Of a stretch of 64,000 nt of DNA, positions 32,472 through 36,267 are shown piece after piece. Source of the stretch: Psychroflexus aestuariivivens (GTDB lineage Bacteria > Bacteroidota > Bacteroidia > Flavobacteriales > Flavobacteriaceae); the NCBI RefSeq assembly GCF_004010055.1, contig NZ_RQVT01000051.1:124001-188000 (forward strand). The letters are read 5' to 3'. Each line of letters starts with the position of its first letter. The first letter of the stretch is position 1. A program made the position numbers and the translations under genes. The notes beneath the pieces are model-generated. The model was not told the origin of the DNA. It did not search any database and saw only the letters and a list, made by a program, of their open reading frames with translations.

Positions 32472-33524
32472 TTATTTCAGATTTGAATTTAAAATAATAA
32501 TTAATTCTTTAAGATTGATATTGATATCCAAAATATGTCCCTGTTTGTTCAATAAATAGTTTTGAGGTAAATTCACAATGCCTAAATCATTGGCCAAATC
32601 GCCTGTAAAACCTTTAGTGTCAATCAGGTTTTTCCATGGCACAACATTCTCCATCAATTTTTCTATCCAAACTTCTTTATTCGTATTCAGGGAAATATCA
32701 ACAATTTCAAAGCCTTTGTAATTATAAACTCGGTAAATCTTTTCCAATTGTTCGTGGTTCATTTTACAATTGTTGCACCAAGTTGTCCAAAATTGAACAA
32801 GAGTTAATTCGGCTTCACCATCTATTATCTTTTCTTTTTCATTTTGAATATTGGTCAATTCAGGATTTGGAAACTTATTGCCTATTTGAAATTCTTTACG
32901 TCTCTCAAGGTATTTTTTAAAAAGCATAACATCTTCATCATAAAGCTGATTTTTATCAAATTTTACATACAATTTTTGTAAATCATCATAAAGCAAAGTT
33001 TGATCTGTAGCAATTTGCGAGAGTCTTTCTCCCAAATAATCATGATTTGGATGTGCATCTATCAAACTGTCCATCAATCGGAAAAGTTGATTCCGATTGG
33101 ACTTTGAAATTTCAAAATCATTATAAAACGATTCAAATTTTGTCTTGAGTTCTGTCGTAGAATTTTCTGAGATTCTGTTAATGAAAAAATTTTCGATGGG
33201 CTGACCAGCAATTGTATCATTTTCAATTAAAACCTCAACGAAAATCGTGTCGTTTGGTGAAATATAAATCCGTTCGGAAGTGTTTTCATCATTAAAAATT
33301 AATTTAGAAACGCTTGGACTTTCTATTTCTCCTCTGAATTCAAAAGTATTGTTTTCGACTTTTGCTGTGTCCGAAGTTTGATTGTATTTCAAAATAATTT
33401 GTTCACCAAAATCACCACTTATGATGCCTTTTAGATAAAATTGATCGGTTTTGGTTTCTTTTTTAGTGGTTTCACAACCCATAAAAACGATCAGAATTAT
33501 GCTGAATAAAAATAATTGTTTCAT
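32472..33524 (-). CDS. TlpA-like thioredoxin-fold lipoprotein
   Basis: A 350-residue predicted lipoprotein. I chose the ATG at 33524, which begins a lipoprotein signal (MKQLFLFSIILIVFMGC, Cys17); an upstream ATG at 33587 would bury it. Residues about 25-110 look like the DUF4369 domain often placed before thioredoxin domains in Bacteroidota. The C-terminal thioredoxin-like domain has the redox motif WCNNC (Cys250, Cys253) after TLVQFWTTW and the cis-proline region IVNLPQNYLLNKQG. It probably acts as a periplasmic thiol-disulfide oxidoreductase. The next gene upstream encodes an MBL-fold/rhodanese protein but is separated by a terminator. Confidence 0.87.
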   Translation of the reverse strand: MKQLFLFSIILIVFMGCETTKKETKTDQFYLKGIISGDFGEQIILKYNQTSDTAKVENNTFEFRGEIESPSVSKLIFNDENTSERIYISPNDTIFVEVLIENDTIAGQPIENFFINRISENSTTELKTKFESFYNDFEISKSNRNQLFRLMDSLIDAHPNHDYLGERLSQIATDQTLLYDDLQKLYVKFDKNQLYDEDVMLFKKYLERRKEFQIGNKFPNPELTNIQNEKEKIIDGEAELTLVQFWTTWCNNCKMNHEQLEKIYRVYNYKGFEIVDISLNTNKEVWIEKLMENVVPWKNLIDTKGFTGDLANDLGIVNLPQNYLLNKQGHILDININLKELIIILNSNLK

Positions 33525-33545: not shown

Positions 33546-33582
33546 ATTAAAAAAGGCTGACGAATTAACGACAGCCTTTAGT
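33546..33582 (-). terminator. Terminator of the rhodanese-HMA-MBL operon
   Basis: On the minus strand, an 8-bp stem (33572-33579 with 33552-33559) is followed by a T tract (complement of 33549-33554). It lies 19 bases after the MBL gene stop and before the TlpA-like gene. Confidence 0.8.
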
Positions 33583-33600
33583 CTCATATTTATTTATGAT

Positions 33601-34944
33601 TTAATTGAAATCCTTAATTTTTTCACTTAAATCATAAACTTTTGCATTTGGTAAAATAGATTCAAGAATGCTACTTCCCGCAGAACTTCTGTAACCGCCA
33701 GCACAATGTACCATAATCGGTTTATCTGTTGGAATGTTTTTAGCAGTATCGCGAAGTTCATTTAAAGGATGATTTTTTGCAGAATCGAATTTTTGTGAAT
33801 CTTCAAATTCACTAACATTCCTGATGTCGATAATGGTATATTTATCTGGATTTTCTTTAAAATCTGCATAATTTAAATCTTCTGAAGATTCGAATTCTGT
33901 TTTTCCTAAAGTCAAGACTGCTTTGACTTGGGATTCATAACCGATTTTTGCAATTCTAGAGAGAATCTCATCGTAGTCTGAAATCGAATTCAATACCAAA
34001 TAGAACTTTTCATTCGGCTTGATAATCGCACCCAACCAAGTTTCAAATTTATCTTTTTCAGTTCTAGCCATAATATTGAAACTATTTTTCAAATGATTGG
34101 CTTTAAAACTTGCTTCAGGTCGCGTATCAATGACTGGCGCATCTGCAGAAAAAGATTCAATGTTCAGTTGAATTTCGATATTTGACACTGAGGCTTTGAA
34201 ATTCGCTGCACCATTTTTATTGATGTCCACATCATGTCCGAAATAGGAAGGAATAAATGGTTGCCCATCCAAAATTTCATTTACAAATTCTTCTTCCGTT
34301 TGCTTTTGAAACGCCCAGTTTCCAATGCGTTCGTTACCTAAAGTACTCACGTTGTCACTGCTCATATTTTTGCCACACAAACTTCCTGCGCCGTGTGCTG
34401 GATAGACCCAAACATTATCGGATAAATCATTGAATTTGGTGGTCATAGTTTTATACATGGCTTGGGCCAATTCACGACGTTTTGCCGTCATATTGCCAGC
34501 TTTTTCTCTTAAATCTGGACGCCCAACATCTCCGATAAATAAAGTGTCTCCTGTGAAAATTGCTTCTTTGTCAGAAGTTTTGTCTTTTGCATAAATCGTG
34601 ATACCATCTGGCGAATGTCCTGGCGTATGAATGGCTTTGAAAGTGGTTTCACCCATTTCAAAAGTATCGCCTTCATCAAAAGTTTTGTGGGGGTAATCCG
34701 CTGCTACAAGTTTGCTTACATAAATATCAGCGCCAGTTTCTTTGTGTATTTGAAGATGACTACTTACAAAATCGGCGTGTGGATGGGTTTCAAAAACAGC
34801 CACAATTTTGGCATTGTTTTCTTCAGCAAATTCATAATAAGGTTTTGGATCTCTAGCTGGATCGACAATTGCCATTTCTCCATTGCTCACAATAGCGTAA
34901 GATAAATGGGAAAGTGCTTTGTCGTTATATTGTTTAATTGTCAT
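33601..34944 (-). CDS. MBL-fold persulfide dioxygenase-like protein fused to rhodanese domains
   Basis: A 447-residue protein from the ATG at 34944 (MTIKQYNDKALSHLSY). The N-terminal metallo-beta-lactamase domain carries THPHADFVSSH (His54, His56, Asp58), the GHSPDGIT block and GDTLFIGDVGRPDLR, typical of ETHE1/Blh-type glutathione- or thiol-persulfide dioxygenases. Two rhodanese-like domains follow; the first lacks a visible catalytic Cys, while the second has VHCAGGYRSSAGSS with a potential sulfur-carrying Cys. It likely oxidises persulfide sulfur to sulfite. It is the last gene of a sulfur cluster and may overlap the HMA gene if the upstream in-frame ATG (34992) were used. Confidence 0.93.
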   Translation of the reverse strand: MTIKQYNDKALSHLSYAIVSNGEMAIVDPARDPKPYYEFAEENNAKIVAVFETHPHADFVSSHLQIHKETGADIYVSKLVAADYPHKTFDEGDTFEMGETTFKAIHTPGHSPDGITIYAKDKTSDKEAIFTGDTLFIGDVGRPDLREKAGNMTAKRRELAQAMYKTMTTKFNDLSDNVWVYPAHGAGSLCGKNMSSDNVSTLGNERIGNWAFQKQTEEEFVNEILDGQPFIPSYFGHDVDINKNGAANFKASVSNIEIQLNIESFSADAPVIDTRPEASFKANHLKNSFNIMARTEKDKFETWLGAIIKPNEKFYLVLNSISDYDEILSRIAKIGYESQVKAVLTLGKTEFESSEDLNYADFKENPDKYTIIDIRNVSEFEDSQKFDSAKNHPLNELRDTAKNIPTDKPIMVHCAGGYRSSAGSSILESILPNAKVYDLSEKIKDFN

Positions 34945-34964
34945 AATGTATTTTTTTAAAAGAT

Positions 34965-35234
34965 TTATTGATTCATTCTTCCTGTCGCGCAACTCACAAA
35001 AGATTTGGCTTTGTTTATTATAGAATTCTGATCGCCTTCAGCTGGGTAACCCAATTTTGTAAGTTGAATTTTGACATTTTCTAAGATATTATTAGAATCG
35101 TATTCAAACTGAATGCTAGATTTTTCAACATCTATATTCAAATTTGAAACGCCATCTATAGTTTGAATTTTCTTGGTAATTGTACTGGCACAACCACCAC
35201 ATTTTAAGTTTTGTATAATTATATTTGTTTGCAT
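34965..35234 (-). CDS. Heavy-metal-associated (HMA) domain protein
   Basis: An 89-residue single-domain protein of the HMA/copper-chaperone fold. The metal-binding loop is NLKCGGCASTITKKI (Cys12 and Cys15, a CxxC with preceding Lys), followed by the typical second-helix region ENVKIQLTKLGYPAEGD. A third cysteine lies near the C terminus (FVSCATGRMNQ). In this context, between rhodanese and persulfide dioxygenase genes, it may bind copper or may carry sulfur on its cysteines; the latter is speculation. It begins 1 base after the rhodanese gene stop. Confidence 0.88.
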   Translation of the reverse strand: MQTNIIIQNLKCGGCASTITKKIQTIDGVSNLNIDVEKSSIQFEYDSNNILENVKIQLTKLGYPAEGDQNSIINKAKSFVSCATGRMNQ

Positions 35235-35235
35235 A

Positions 35236-35571
35236 TTAGTTGTTTTTAATCCATTTGATATATCCGCCTTCTAAATCTATGATGTTTTGAAAACCAATAG
35301 AAACCATAATTCTCGCGGCTTTTTGACTTCGATTGCCACTTCTACAATAAATATAAATTGGCTCAGATTTATTGAATTTATCTATTTTCGTTTCAAAATC
35401 TGATCTTAAAACGTCAATATTTATTGATCCATTTATTTTTCCTAGTAGGAATTCATTTTTTGTTCTTACATCTACGAGCTGAACATTCGGTTTTTGAATG
35501 GCAACTTTGTATTGATTAGCGTTGATTACGCTAATTTCTTTAAATTTCTTTGTTTTAAAAATAGAAAACAT
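35236..35571 (-). CDS. Single-domain rhodanese
   Basis: A 111-residue rhodanese. The LVDVRTKNEFLLGKINGSINIDV block and the active-site loop YIYCRSGNRSQKAARIM (Cys76) are clear, so it should transfer sulfane sulfur to a thiol acceptor. It is the first enzyme gene of the operon and follows a candidate Crp/Fnr operator at 35617-35630. No signal peptide is obvious; a short N-terminal extension (MFSIFKTKKFKEISVI) precedes the domain. It probably supplies or relays persulfide sulfur for the dioxygenase downstream. Confidence 0.93.
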   Translation of the reverse strand: MFSIFKTKKFKEISVINANQYKVAIQKPNVQLVDVRTKNEFLLGKINGSINIDVLRSDFETKIDKFNKSEPIYIYCRSGNRSQKAARIMVSIGFQNIIDLEGGYIKWIKNN

Positions 35572-35616
35572 AAATTAAATTTCCTACAAATTAAAACGAT
35601 TTAAGCGAGCCCTACA

Positions 35617-35630
35617 GTAACAAAAGTTAC
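35617..35630. promoter_or_regulatory. Candidate Crp/Fnr operator upstream of the rhodanese operon
   Basis: The perfect palindrome GTAACAAAAGTTAC (5-4-5 geometry, as in FNR-type sites) lies between the Crp/Fnr gene stop and the rhodanese start. A TAATTTG sequence near the -7 position (complement at 35587-35593) would put the operator centre near -41 to -44, as for class II activation. The spacing is inferred. Confidence 0.5.
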
Positions 35631-35640
35631 GAATTTAGTT

Positions 35641-36267
35641 TTAGAACAATTTGATAGAATTACGTTGCAAAGCGATTCTTTTTTCTTTTTCCAATTGTTT
35701 CAGTAGTCTAGAAACAACCACGCGACTGGTATGAAGATCGTAAGCGATTTCTTGGTGAGTAGTTTTGATTTCCGAATTTTCATAAAATTTTGCTTTATTA
35801 TGAAGGTATTTTAAAAGGCGTTGGTCCATTTTTTTGAAAGCTATATTATCAATGGTTTCCAAAACTTCCATTAAACGGTTGTGGTAACTGTCGAAAACAA
35901 AATTTCGCCAGGATTTATATTTCGAAATCCAAGCTTCCATTTTTTCAATAGGAATCATCACCAGAGTGGAATCGATCTCGGCGACTGCTCGAATTTCGCT
36001 TACAGCGGTTGCAGTACAACAGGAAAGTGTCATGGCGCAAGTTTCTCCTTTTTCTAGAAAGTAGAGGAGAAGTTCAAAACCTTCTTTGTCTTCGCGCATC
36101 ACTTTGATGACGCCGTCCAAAAGCAATGGCATTGCCGTCAAATATTGACCGATACGGATGAGTTCGTCACCGGATTTTACTTTTTTGACAATTCCAACTT
36201 CATTGATTTCTTCCAGCAGTTCTTCTTCAAAAATATGGGCGTAATTTGTTTTTATTTCTTCTAACAT
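35641..36267 (-). CDS. Crp/Fnr family transcriptional regulator
   Basis: A 208-residue regulator with an N-terminal cyclic-nucleotide-binding-like sensor domain (SGDELIRIGQYLTAMPLLLDGVIKVMRED...LLLYFLEKGETCAMTLSCC) and a C-terminal winged helix (TTHQEIAYDLHTSRVVVSRLLKQLEKEKRI). Cys77, Cys83 and Cys84 sit where other Crp members bind ligand or sense redox; no N-terminal [4Fe-4S] cluster cysteines are seen. It lies 69 bases upstream of the rhodanese-HMA-MBL genes on the same strand, with a palindrome in the gap. Regulation of sulfide or persulfide detoxification is a reasonable inference. Confidence 0.9.
   Translation of the reverse strand: MLEEIKTNYAHIFEEELLEEINEVGIVKKVKSGDELIRIGQYLTAMPLLLDGVIKVMREDKEGFELLLYFLEKGETCAMTLSCCTATAVSEIRAVAEIDSTLVMIPIEKMEAWISKYKSWRNFVFDSYHNRLMEVLETIDNIAFKKMDQRLLKYLHNKAKFYENSEIKTTHQEIAYDLHTSRVVVSRLLKQLEKEKRIALQRNSIKLF

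Follow-up and report, generated by a model that had tools for sequence, protein, structure and literature searches.

A Crp/Fnr-family protein as the probable activator of a sulfide/persulfide regulon in Psychroflexus and other Flavobacteriaceae

The question raised by the locus

Which regulator controls a cluster of persulfide-handling genes in Psychroflexus aestuariivivens, and to which signal would it respond? Sulfide is a common poison and also a signal, and several families of regulators include persulfide sensors. The cluster lies in a stretch of 64,000 nucleotides (nt) of this flavobacterium (contig NZ_RQVT01000051.1, positions 124,001 to 188,000), hereafter the window, where a Crp/Fnr-family gene is followed by genes for sulfur enzymes. 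An earlier note on this DNA had placed genes for a Crp/Fnr protein, a rhodanese, an HMA protein and a metallo-beta-lactamase (MBL)-rhodanese protein next to each other on one strand; their order, their strand and the 69-nt gap behind the regulator gene (35572-35640) were confirmed, and Pfam agrees with the assignments. The features on which the argument turns are the following.

35641..36267, minus strand: Crp/Fnr-family regulator of 208 amino acids (aa), with Cys77, Cys83 and Cys84 at the place of the cyclic-nucleotide phosphate-binding cassette and Val183 at the position of Glu181 in CRP
35617-35630, minus strand, behind the Crp/Fnr stop codon: putative operator GTAACTTTTGTTAC (minus-strand reading; GTAACAAAAGTTAC)
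35593-35587, minus strand: -7 box of the target promoter, TAATTTG, with 26 nt between the palindrome and TTTG
35236..35571, minus strand: single-domain rhodanese (Pfam Rhodanese), with the loop CRSGNRS read from the sequence
34965..35234, minus strand: HMA-domain protein (Pfam HMA) containing CGGC and, at its C-terminal end, the conserved motif SCATGRM
33601..34944, minus strand: MBL and rhodanese protein (Pfam Lactamase_B and Rhodanese), a probable persulfide dioxygenase/sulfurtransferase, CstB-like

Conservation of the operator and its spacing

The palindrome had been placed by the earlier note in the 69-nt gap, and there, at 35617-35630, is the sole exact match to GTAACAAAAGTTAC in the window. 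A first-order Markov estimate gives about 2e-5 such palindromes expected in the gap, and the same model is too low for the genome (0.9 exact palindromes expected, 6 found), so that an expectation of about 1e-4, taken from the genome's own rate, is safer. Comparison was made with 80 relatives (loci), fetched by similarity to the regulator. An exact GTAAC-N4-GTTAC was found within 250 nt behind the regulator stop codon in 52 of them; a control palindrome with each half-site reversed (CAATG-N4-CATTG) was found in one, and the pattern read fully backwards in none. A lack of conservation at similar clusters had been named in advance as a way for the proposal to fail, and the proposal survived it. 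The exact site is present in at least one species of 14 of the 20 named genera, with 9/11 loci in Psychroflexus, 15/16 in Aquimarina and 8/8 in Salegentibacter. The nearest named relatives are in Psychroflexus, where the regulator is 75-79% identical in nine loci. In nine loci of this genus GTAAC....GTTACTG and the TTTG 26 nt on are invariant and the surrounding letters vary. The exact site overlaps the called stop codon of the regulator in Psychroflexus curvus (L039), and a further genome of the same genus (L204) carries a site stretch identical to this one.

Across loci L008-L116 there are 179 exact sites. A called gene starts within 200 nt of 172 of them; of the others, 3 are confined to the interior of genes and 4 fit neither description. 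An alignment of 177 distinct site-gene rows, anchored at the palindrome, places TTTG exactly 26 nt after it in 111, the offset seen in the window, and TAnnTTTG 22 nt after it (29 nt after its centre) in 88. In 1000 mononucleotide shuffles the highest count at any offset was 8, and the mean at the TTTG offset 1.2. With one row per locus, TTTG keeps the fixed offset in 69/93, and the gap from palindrome to start codon measures 40-59 nt in 116 of the 177 rows. TAnnTTTG is the -7 element of the Bacteroidota. The centre of the palindrome lies 29 nt before this element and therefore near -41 (-41.5), the class II position, which upholds the earlier proposal that it sits where a class II activator would bind relative to TAATTTG. 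A site near -41.5 with a fixed spacing to the -7 element is predicted to form a class II activator promoter, and there is a strong likelihood that the regulator acts by activation.

The distribution of the composite site, defined as an exact GTAACN4GTTACN26TTTG and compared with the same pattern read backwards, extends this result to whole genomes. The genome of the window holds three exact composites and no control, and 149 genomes of the Flavobacteriaceae (the family) hold 249 against 25 controls. These genomes were classed by their best match to the regulator, one with E<1e-55 being counted as close; no value falls between 5e-60 and 1e-49. At least one composite occurs in 96 of the 116 genomes with a close regulator and in 4 of the 33 others, all 4 being among the 19 with a weaker match; the association between composite and close regulator has a Fisher probability of 9e-14, not corrected for relatedness. 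In a separate draw of 198 genomes of the phylum, the 19 family members contain 27 composites and no controls. That the operator is genuine and paired with the Crp/Fnr regulator is hardly to be doubted.

Could the palindrome belong to another Crp/Fnr protein, the adjacent gene being a mere neighbour? Boxes of this superfamily are alike, and some genomes contain several homologs, which would favour such a reading. Against it, none of the 14 family genomes that lack a homolog has a composite site, and the class of the box follows residue 183 of the neighbouring regulator, as set out below; it is thus very improbable.

Residue 183 and the class of the box

Among 160 distinct homologs, position 183 (Glu181 of CRP) is Val in 132, mostly fetched for their similarity to the regulator of the window, and Glu in 28. 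Within 300 nt, the Val type has GTAAC-N4-GTTAC downstream in 77 cases and upstream in 6, GTGAC-N4-GTCAC in none and hybrids in 2. The Glu type has GTAAC in none, GTGAC downstream in 3 and upstream in 1, and hybrids in 3; the other 21 show none of these. Across 198 genomes of the class, GTGAC composites with the same spacing occur 39 times and their controls 7 times. Residue 183 and the box co-vary, Val183 going with GTAAC and Glu183 with GTGAC. The split fits the published rule, in the part of the source available, that changes at position 181 of CRP shift the recognised box (PMC1274295). It also agrees with NtcA, whose SRV helix is the same. It would constitute a specificity pair open to bench work.

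At one locus (L246; G234:C2:436217-439795), an HMA gene on one side and YgaP-like/YeeE genes on the other flank the gene of a paralogous Glu-type regulator that has Cys77 but neither Cys83 nor Cys84. A GTGAC box lies behind this regulator and a GTAAC composite further on, and the Val-type regulator is encoded about 4 kb away.

The box itself invites a second explanation, in which the protein is an HcpR-like regulator of nitric oxide (NO) or nitrosative stress that senses NO through haem. An identical consensus, GTAACnnnnGTTAC, is given for the HcpR2 branch (Clostridium, Bacteroides, Thermotogales, Treponema) in the available portion of PMC1274295, and HcpR2 shares the Crp/Fnr fold with the regulator of the window. 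In that same portion, HcpR2 differs by its hcp partner, its other targets and a Pro at position 181 of the recognition helix, where Val or Glu is found here (PMC1274295). The partner gene is missing as well: hcp (PF03063) is absent from the genome of the window and was matched in 1/149 family genomes, by a fragment of 42 positions, and in 5/14 control genomes, and no hcp occurs among the labelled genes behind sites. An HcpR-like function is accordingly given very little credence.

The regulator and its cysteines

Pfam assigns only Crp/Fnr domains to the protein (cNMP_binding and HTH_Crp_2, both above cut-off). The AlphaFold model has a pLDDT of 88.9 and matches CRP in Foldseek with E 1.5e-15, which places the protein in the Crp/Fnr superfamily; model confidence is lower at the cysteines (mean 74 for residues 71-80 and 66 for residues 81-90). 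Similarity to Escherichia coli CRP includes the fold (TM 0.79 to 1i5z_A and 0.82 to 2cgp_A) and the class II-type position of the site. CRP differs in its phosphate-binding cassette, in its TGTGA box against GTAAC and in Glu181 against Val. The cassette of CRP is marked by the residues GE...R. In the alignment, the CRP stretch GELGLF...ERS stands opposite TCAMTLSCC...VS, the cassette having been lost. Because the cassette is replaced and the protein scores 50.4 bits on the NCBIfam CRP equivalog, whose cut-off is 266, membership among the cAMP receptors is not indicated and cAMP is an unlikely ligand. The N-terminal cysteine cluster of the iron-sulfur (Fe-S) protein FNR is also absent. The best match in both sequence and fold is 3dv8, a Crp/Fnr protein of Eubacterium rectale (25% identity), whose cysteines align with Cys77 and Cys83; the title of that entry names no function. 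NtcA has SRV in the recognition helix, as does the regulator of the window in the alignment, and its box, GTA-N8-TAC, is contained in GTAAC-N4-GTTAC. It differs in being a cyanobacterial nitrogen regulator without an aligned cysteine motif.

The cysteines at positions 77, 83 and 84 had been assigned by the earlier note to the sensor domain; this was verified, and they are the sole cysteines of the protein. Cys77 is present in 159/160 homologs and all three residues in 127/160, while 13 retain one of Cys83 and Cys84 and 19 have Cys77 alone. Three conserved cysteines would also suit a redox or O2 sensor, in which they bind an Fe-S cluster or, under oxidative stress, become joined in a disulfide, and the sulfur genes are induced because sulfide accompanies anoxia. 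Thioredoxins, a peroxiredoxin and cytochrome bd, encoded behind or near the sites, speak in the same direction. This alternative is improbable, though less so than the others considered here: there are no FNR-like N-terminal cysteines, 32 of the 159 homologs with Cys77 lack one or both of Cys83 and Cys84, and sulfur genes are the commonest targets. A sulfane-sulfur effector is the best guess, since the regulon is built around a CstB/PRF-type protein. The proposal of the earlier note that the cysteines sense sulfide or persulfide directly is, for persulfide, reasonably likely to be right.

Genes behind the sites

Gene clusters were built from our own open reading frame calls, with Pfam applied to representatives only. 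In 78/80 loci the 6 kb downstream contain, on the same strand, a gene for TauE, MBL-rhodanese, rhodanese, YeeE, SulP or sulfide:quinone oxidoreductase (SQR), a count that leaves out HMA and cytochrome bd. Where there is a first gene (78 loci), it is TauE in 52, and assignments of sites to gene clusters give 50 for TauE, 48 for MBL-rhodanese and 9 for HMA. The MBL-rhodanese protein of the window has the architecture of the CstB/PRF persulfide dioxygenase-rhodanese proteins and would be one of them by its best structure matches, 3tp9 (E 4e-63) and 3r2u (E 3e-50), the latter being CstB, followed by 5ve3 (BpPRF; E 1e-12). YeeE-type transport occurs in persulfide-responsive regulons. Cytochrome bd is found downstream in 15/80 loci; it is H2S-resistant and sulfide-induced in Acinetobacter, as stated in the part of PMC8148161 available.

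Two samples of composites were labelled. In 33 sites from 30 family loci, labelled by reading and drawn from the 249, sulfur or thiol genes follow 20/33 (TauE 6, MBL 4, SulP 2, rhodanese 2, YeeE 1, YgaP-like 1, thioredoxin-type 3, peroxiredoxin 1); the rest are outer-membrane efflux 4, a 120-aa protein 3, fatty-acid hydroxylase 1, others 2 and none 3. In 27 loci (L177-L203) from the draw of 198 genomes of the phylum, such genes follow 15/27 (MBL 5, YgaP-like 3, TauE-like 2, and one each of rhodanese, SulP, SQR, CoA-disulfide-reductase-like and redoxin), and the remainder comprise efflux 5, DUF983 2, HMA 1, thiopurine-methyltransferase-like 1, other 1 and none 2.

Of the three exact composites in the genome of the window, one lies before the window operon, one before TauE and one before a YeeE/DUF6691 (YeeE/YedE) pair. 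A further exact palindrome with one mismatch in TTTG (L004) stands before an operon with DsrE and a SoxB/5'-nucleotidase-like metallophosphatase; because relatives show the same type of operon behind their sites, it is probably a regulon site rather than chance. Four composites of this genome have one mismatch, and three of them are possible regulon sites: L120 before DUF983, L121, which is the L004 operon, and L122 before a SCO1-like gene. The fourth (L123) lies inside a called gene, as do the sites L003 and L005, which were taken as chance.

In the operons of the L004 kind the first gene, in front of DsrE-like genes, encodes a small protein, of 105-120 aa in relatives (L255, L256 and L257) and of 142 aa in L004. 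Three such proteins were scanned and gave no Pfam match; the 142-aa protein of L004 may, from its position, be related to the 120-aa proteins. SoxB/5'-nucleotidase-like genes occur in the L256, L257 and L004 operons, and DoxX and redoxin genes in relatives. At four other loci (L253, L254, L259, L260) the genes behind the operator encode an outer-membrane efflux protein, a protein that we read as membrane-fusion-type, an RND pump (identified by Pfam in L254) and a 101-aa protein that no Pfam model matches. Export of sulfur or thiol compounds by these operons is possible.

Efflux genes and the HMA protein suggest a sensor of thiophilic metal (copper), with HMA and RND efflux as the core and the sulfur genes secondary. 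The earlier note had called an HMA protein among sulfur enzymes unusual, a description that does not hold, for an HMA gene is present in 23/80 loci, and this frequency is itself in keeping with a metal sensor. So are the efflux operons, with genes for an outer-membrane protein and RND, that follow sites at 4 fetched loci, the SCO1-like gene of L122 and, in L258 (1-471), the end of a P-type-ATPase-like gene (DGIND motif, our own reading) directly upstream of the regulator. Against this, TauE and MBL-rhodanese far outnumber HMA in the site assignments; no HMA gene occurs within 6 kb downstream in 57/80 loci, and relatives of the L258 ATPase are found in 1/109 loci (L008-L116). A metal sensor is accordingly a distant prospect. 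The link between the Crp/Fnr protein and persulfide-handling genes, as first suggested for the window, has received strong comparative support from the conserved site, the sulfur genes and the pairing at genome scale, and control of a sulfide/persulfide regulon by this regulator is very probable on these comparisons.

Weighing the evidence

Several results weigh against the proposed activator. In the genome of the window the exact palindrome by itself is no commoner than the backwards pattern (6 of each), and composites with two mismatches are not enriched either (38 against 64 controls); degenerate sites are for this reason kept out of the claims, and the evidence for the operator is its conserved position and spacing. 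No exact site was found within 250 nt in 28/80 loci (in the first 120 nt, 5 of these have a site with one mismatch and 4 with two; L039 has the exact site overlapping the called stop codon) or in 6 of the 20 named genera, Salinimicrobium (0/5 loci) and Wenyingzhuangia (0/3) having none, and an exact composite is lacking in 20 of the 116 genomes whose regulator match is close. Outside the family, the remainder of the order and class shows hardly any enrichment (14 against 7 controls in 30 genomes) and other classes none (4 against 21 in 149). Cys83 and/or Cys84 are missing in 12 of the 132 Val-type homologs. The bias in fetching Val-type homologs counts here too, and independent Val/Glu events are few, because the tree shows about five changes, two of them forced by supported branches. 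RND efflux, fatty-acid hydroxylase and DUF983 have no obvious sulfur role. Beyond the family the composite alone carries little, and the evidence there is position: in five loci of another class (f22), with regulators 46-48% identical, an exact palindrome lies within 250 nt behind the regulator.

Sequence comparison supports the operator, its spacing, the regulon and the pairing of regulator and operator; we infer the dimer, activation over repression, and the effector with its chemistry. The protein encoded at 35641-36267 would be a dimeric activator of the Crp/Fnr family that binds GTAAC-N4-GTTAC near -41.5 of a Bacteroidota-type promoter, in the class II manner, and recruits RNA polymerase to the adjoining rhodanese-HMA-MBL/rhodanese operon. 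It would also serve unlinked operons of the same genome, those of the TauE permease and the YeeE/YedE pair, with the DsrE and SoxB/5'-nucleotidase-like operon and DUF983 as further probable targets. Together the regulon would transport, transfer and oxidise sulfane sulfur. The effector is most likely persulfide or polysulfide, which may modify Cys77 and Cys83/Cys84 at the place of the cAMP site of CRP and so shift the dimer to its DNA-binding state. Taken as a whole, a Crp/Fnr activator of a sulfide/persulfide regulon whose effector modifies cysteines is a likely explanation.

A broader version, for which the chances appear about even, is a Bacteroidota-wide Crp/Fnr clade in which the cAMP cassette became a sulfane-sulfur sensor (C-x5-CC). 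This clade would have Val/GTAAC and Glu/GTGAC types, sometimes side by side within one gene cluster, and control a large sulfide/persulfide regulon of persulfide dioxygenase, rhodanese, TauE, YeeE, SulP, SQR, SoxB-like/DsrE, thioredoxins, cytochrome bd and an RND pump.

Relation to known persulfide regulators

The regulons of CstR (Staphylococcus aureus), SqrR/BigR (Proteobacteria) and FisR have the same job as that of Psychroflexus, and a multi-cysteine regulator is also shared. Common genes, in the parts of the sources available, are persulfide dioxygenase (MBL), rhodanese/sulfurtransferase, SQR and TauE (PMC8148161, PMC9774590). The known regulators belong to the CsoR, ArsR and Fis families, respectively, and the first two are repressors, according to the available part of PMC9774590. 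In the known sensors the cysteines form di- to tetrasulfide links; those of the Psychroflexus regulator are conserved among its homologs. Unlike them, the regulator of the window is a Crp/Fnr protein with an activator-type site placement and another operator; it belongs to none of the three families, and its control of persulfide dioxygenase, sulfurtransferase and TauE-type genes is indicated by comparison only.

The literature searched contains no Crp/Fnr persulfide sensor, a search that left subscription papers and most preprints outside and whose terms may have missed some spellings of 'Crp/Fnr'. In its available part, a review of sulfur sensing names CstR, SqrR/BigR, PigS and FisR, with Fnr absent and Crp only in the references (PMC9774590), and the available parts of PMC13370916 and PMC12345210 contain nothing on the box or on a regulator. 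PgRsp of Porphyromonas is described, in the portion of the source available, as a haem-binding Crp/Fnr protein (PMC6955866). The box itself was already known (HcpR2, 2005); what is new, as far as seen, is the pairing of regulator and regulon, the conservation and spacing of the operator and the Val/Glu split. With a conserved operator, the sulfide response of the Flavobacteriaceae would be readable directly from genomes, and the operator points to the HMA protein, the 120-aa protein and the RND pump as further candidate members.

Boundaries of the gene cluster

33549..33579, minus strand: hairpin followed by U residues, just 3' of the MBL-rhodanese stop codon, a likely terminator (from folding)

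The hairpin has a z of -5.2 in the folding of a 56-nt stretch. Because this strong hairpin with its U residues lies behind the last gene, the rhodanese, HMA and MBL-rhodanese genes probably form a three-gene operon. A scan for sigma-70 promoters and terminators was uninformative and did not list the hairpin, whose loop is longer than the 8 nt allowed by the scan. The TlpA-like gene ending at 32472 is probably a separate unit. For the MBL gene, the ATG at 34944 is more likely to be the start than the TTG at 34992. All rows of the HMA cluster (26 rows, 24 distinct) contain KCxGC and a C-terminal SCA.GK/R motif, and with its third cysteine the HMA protein may carry sulfur instead of acting as a copper chaperone. 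In eight Psychroflexus loci (L037-L044) the HMA gene is only 92-138 nt from the site, too near for a rhodanese gene to fit between them as it does in the window.

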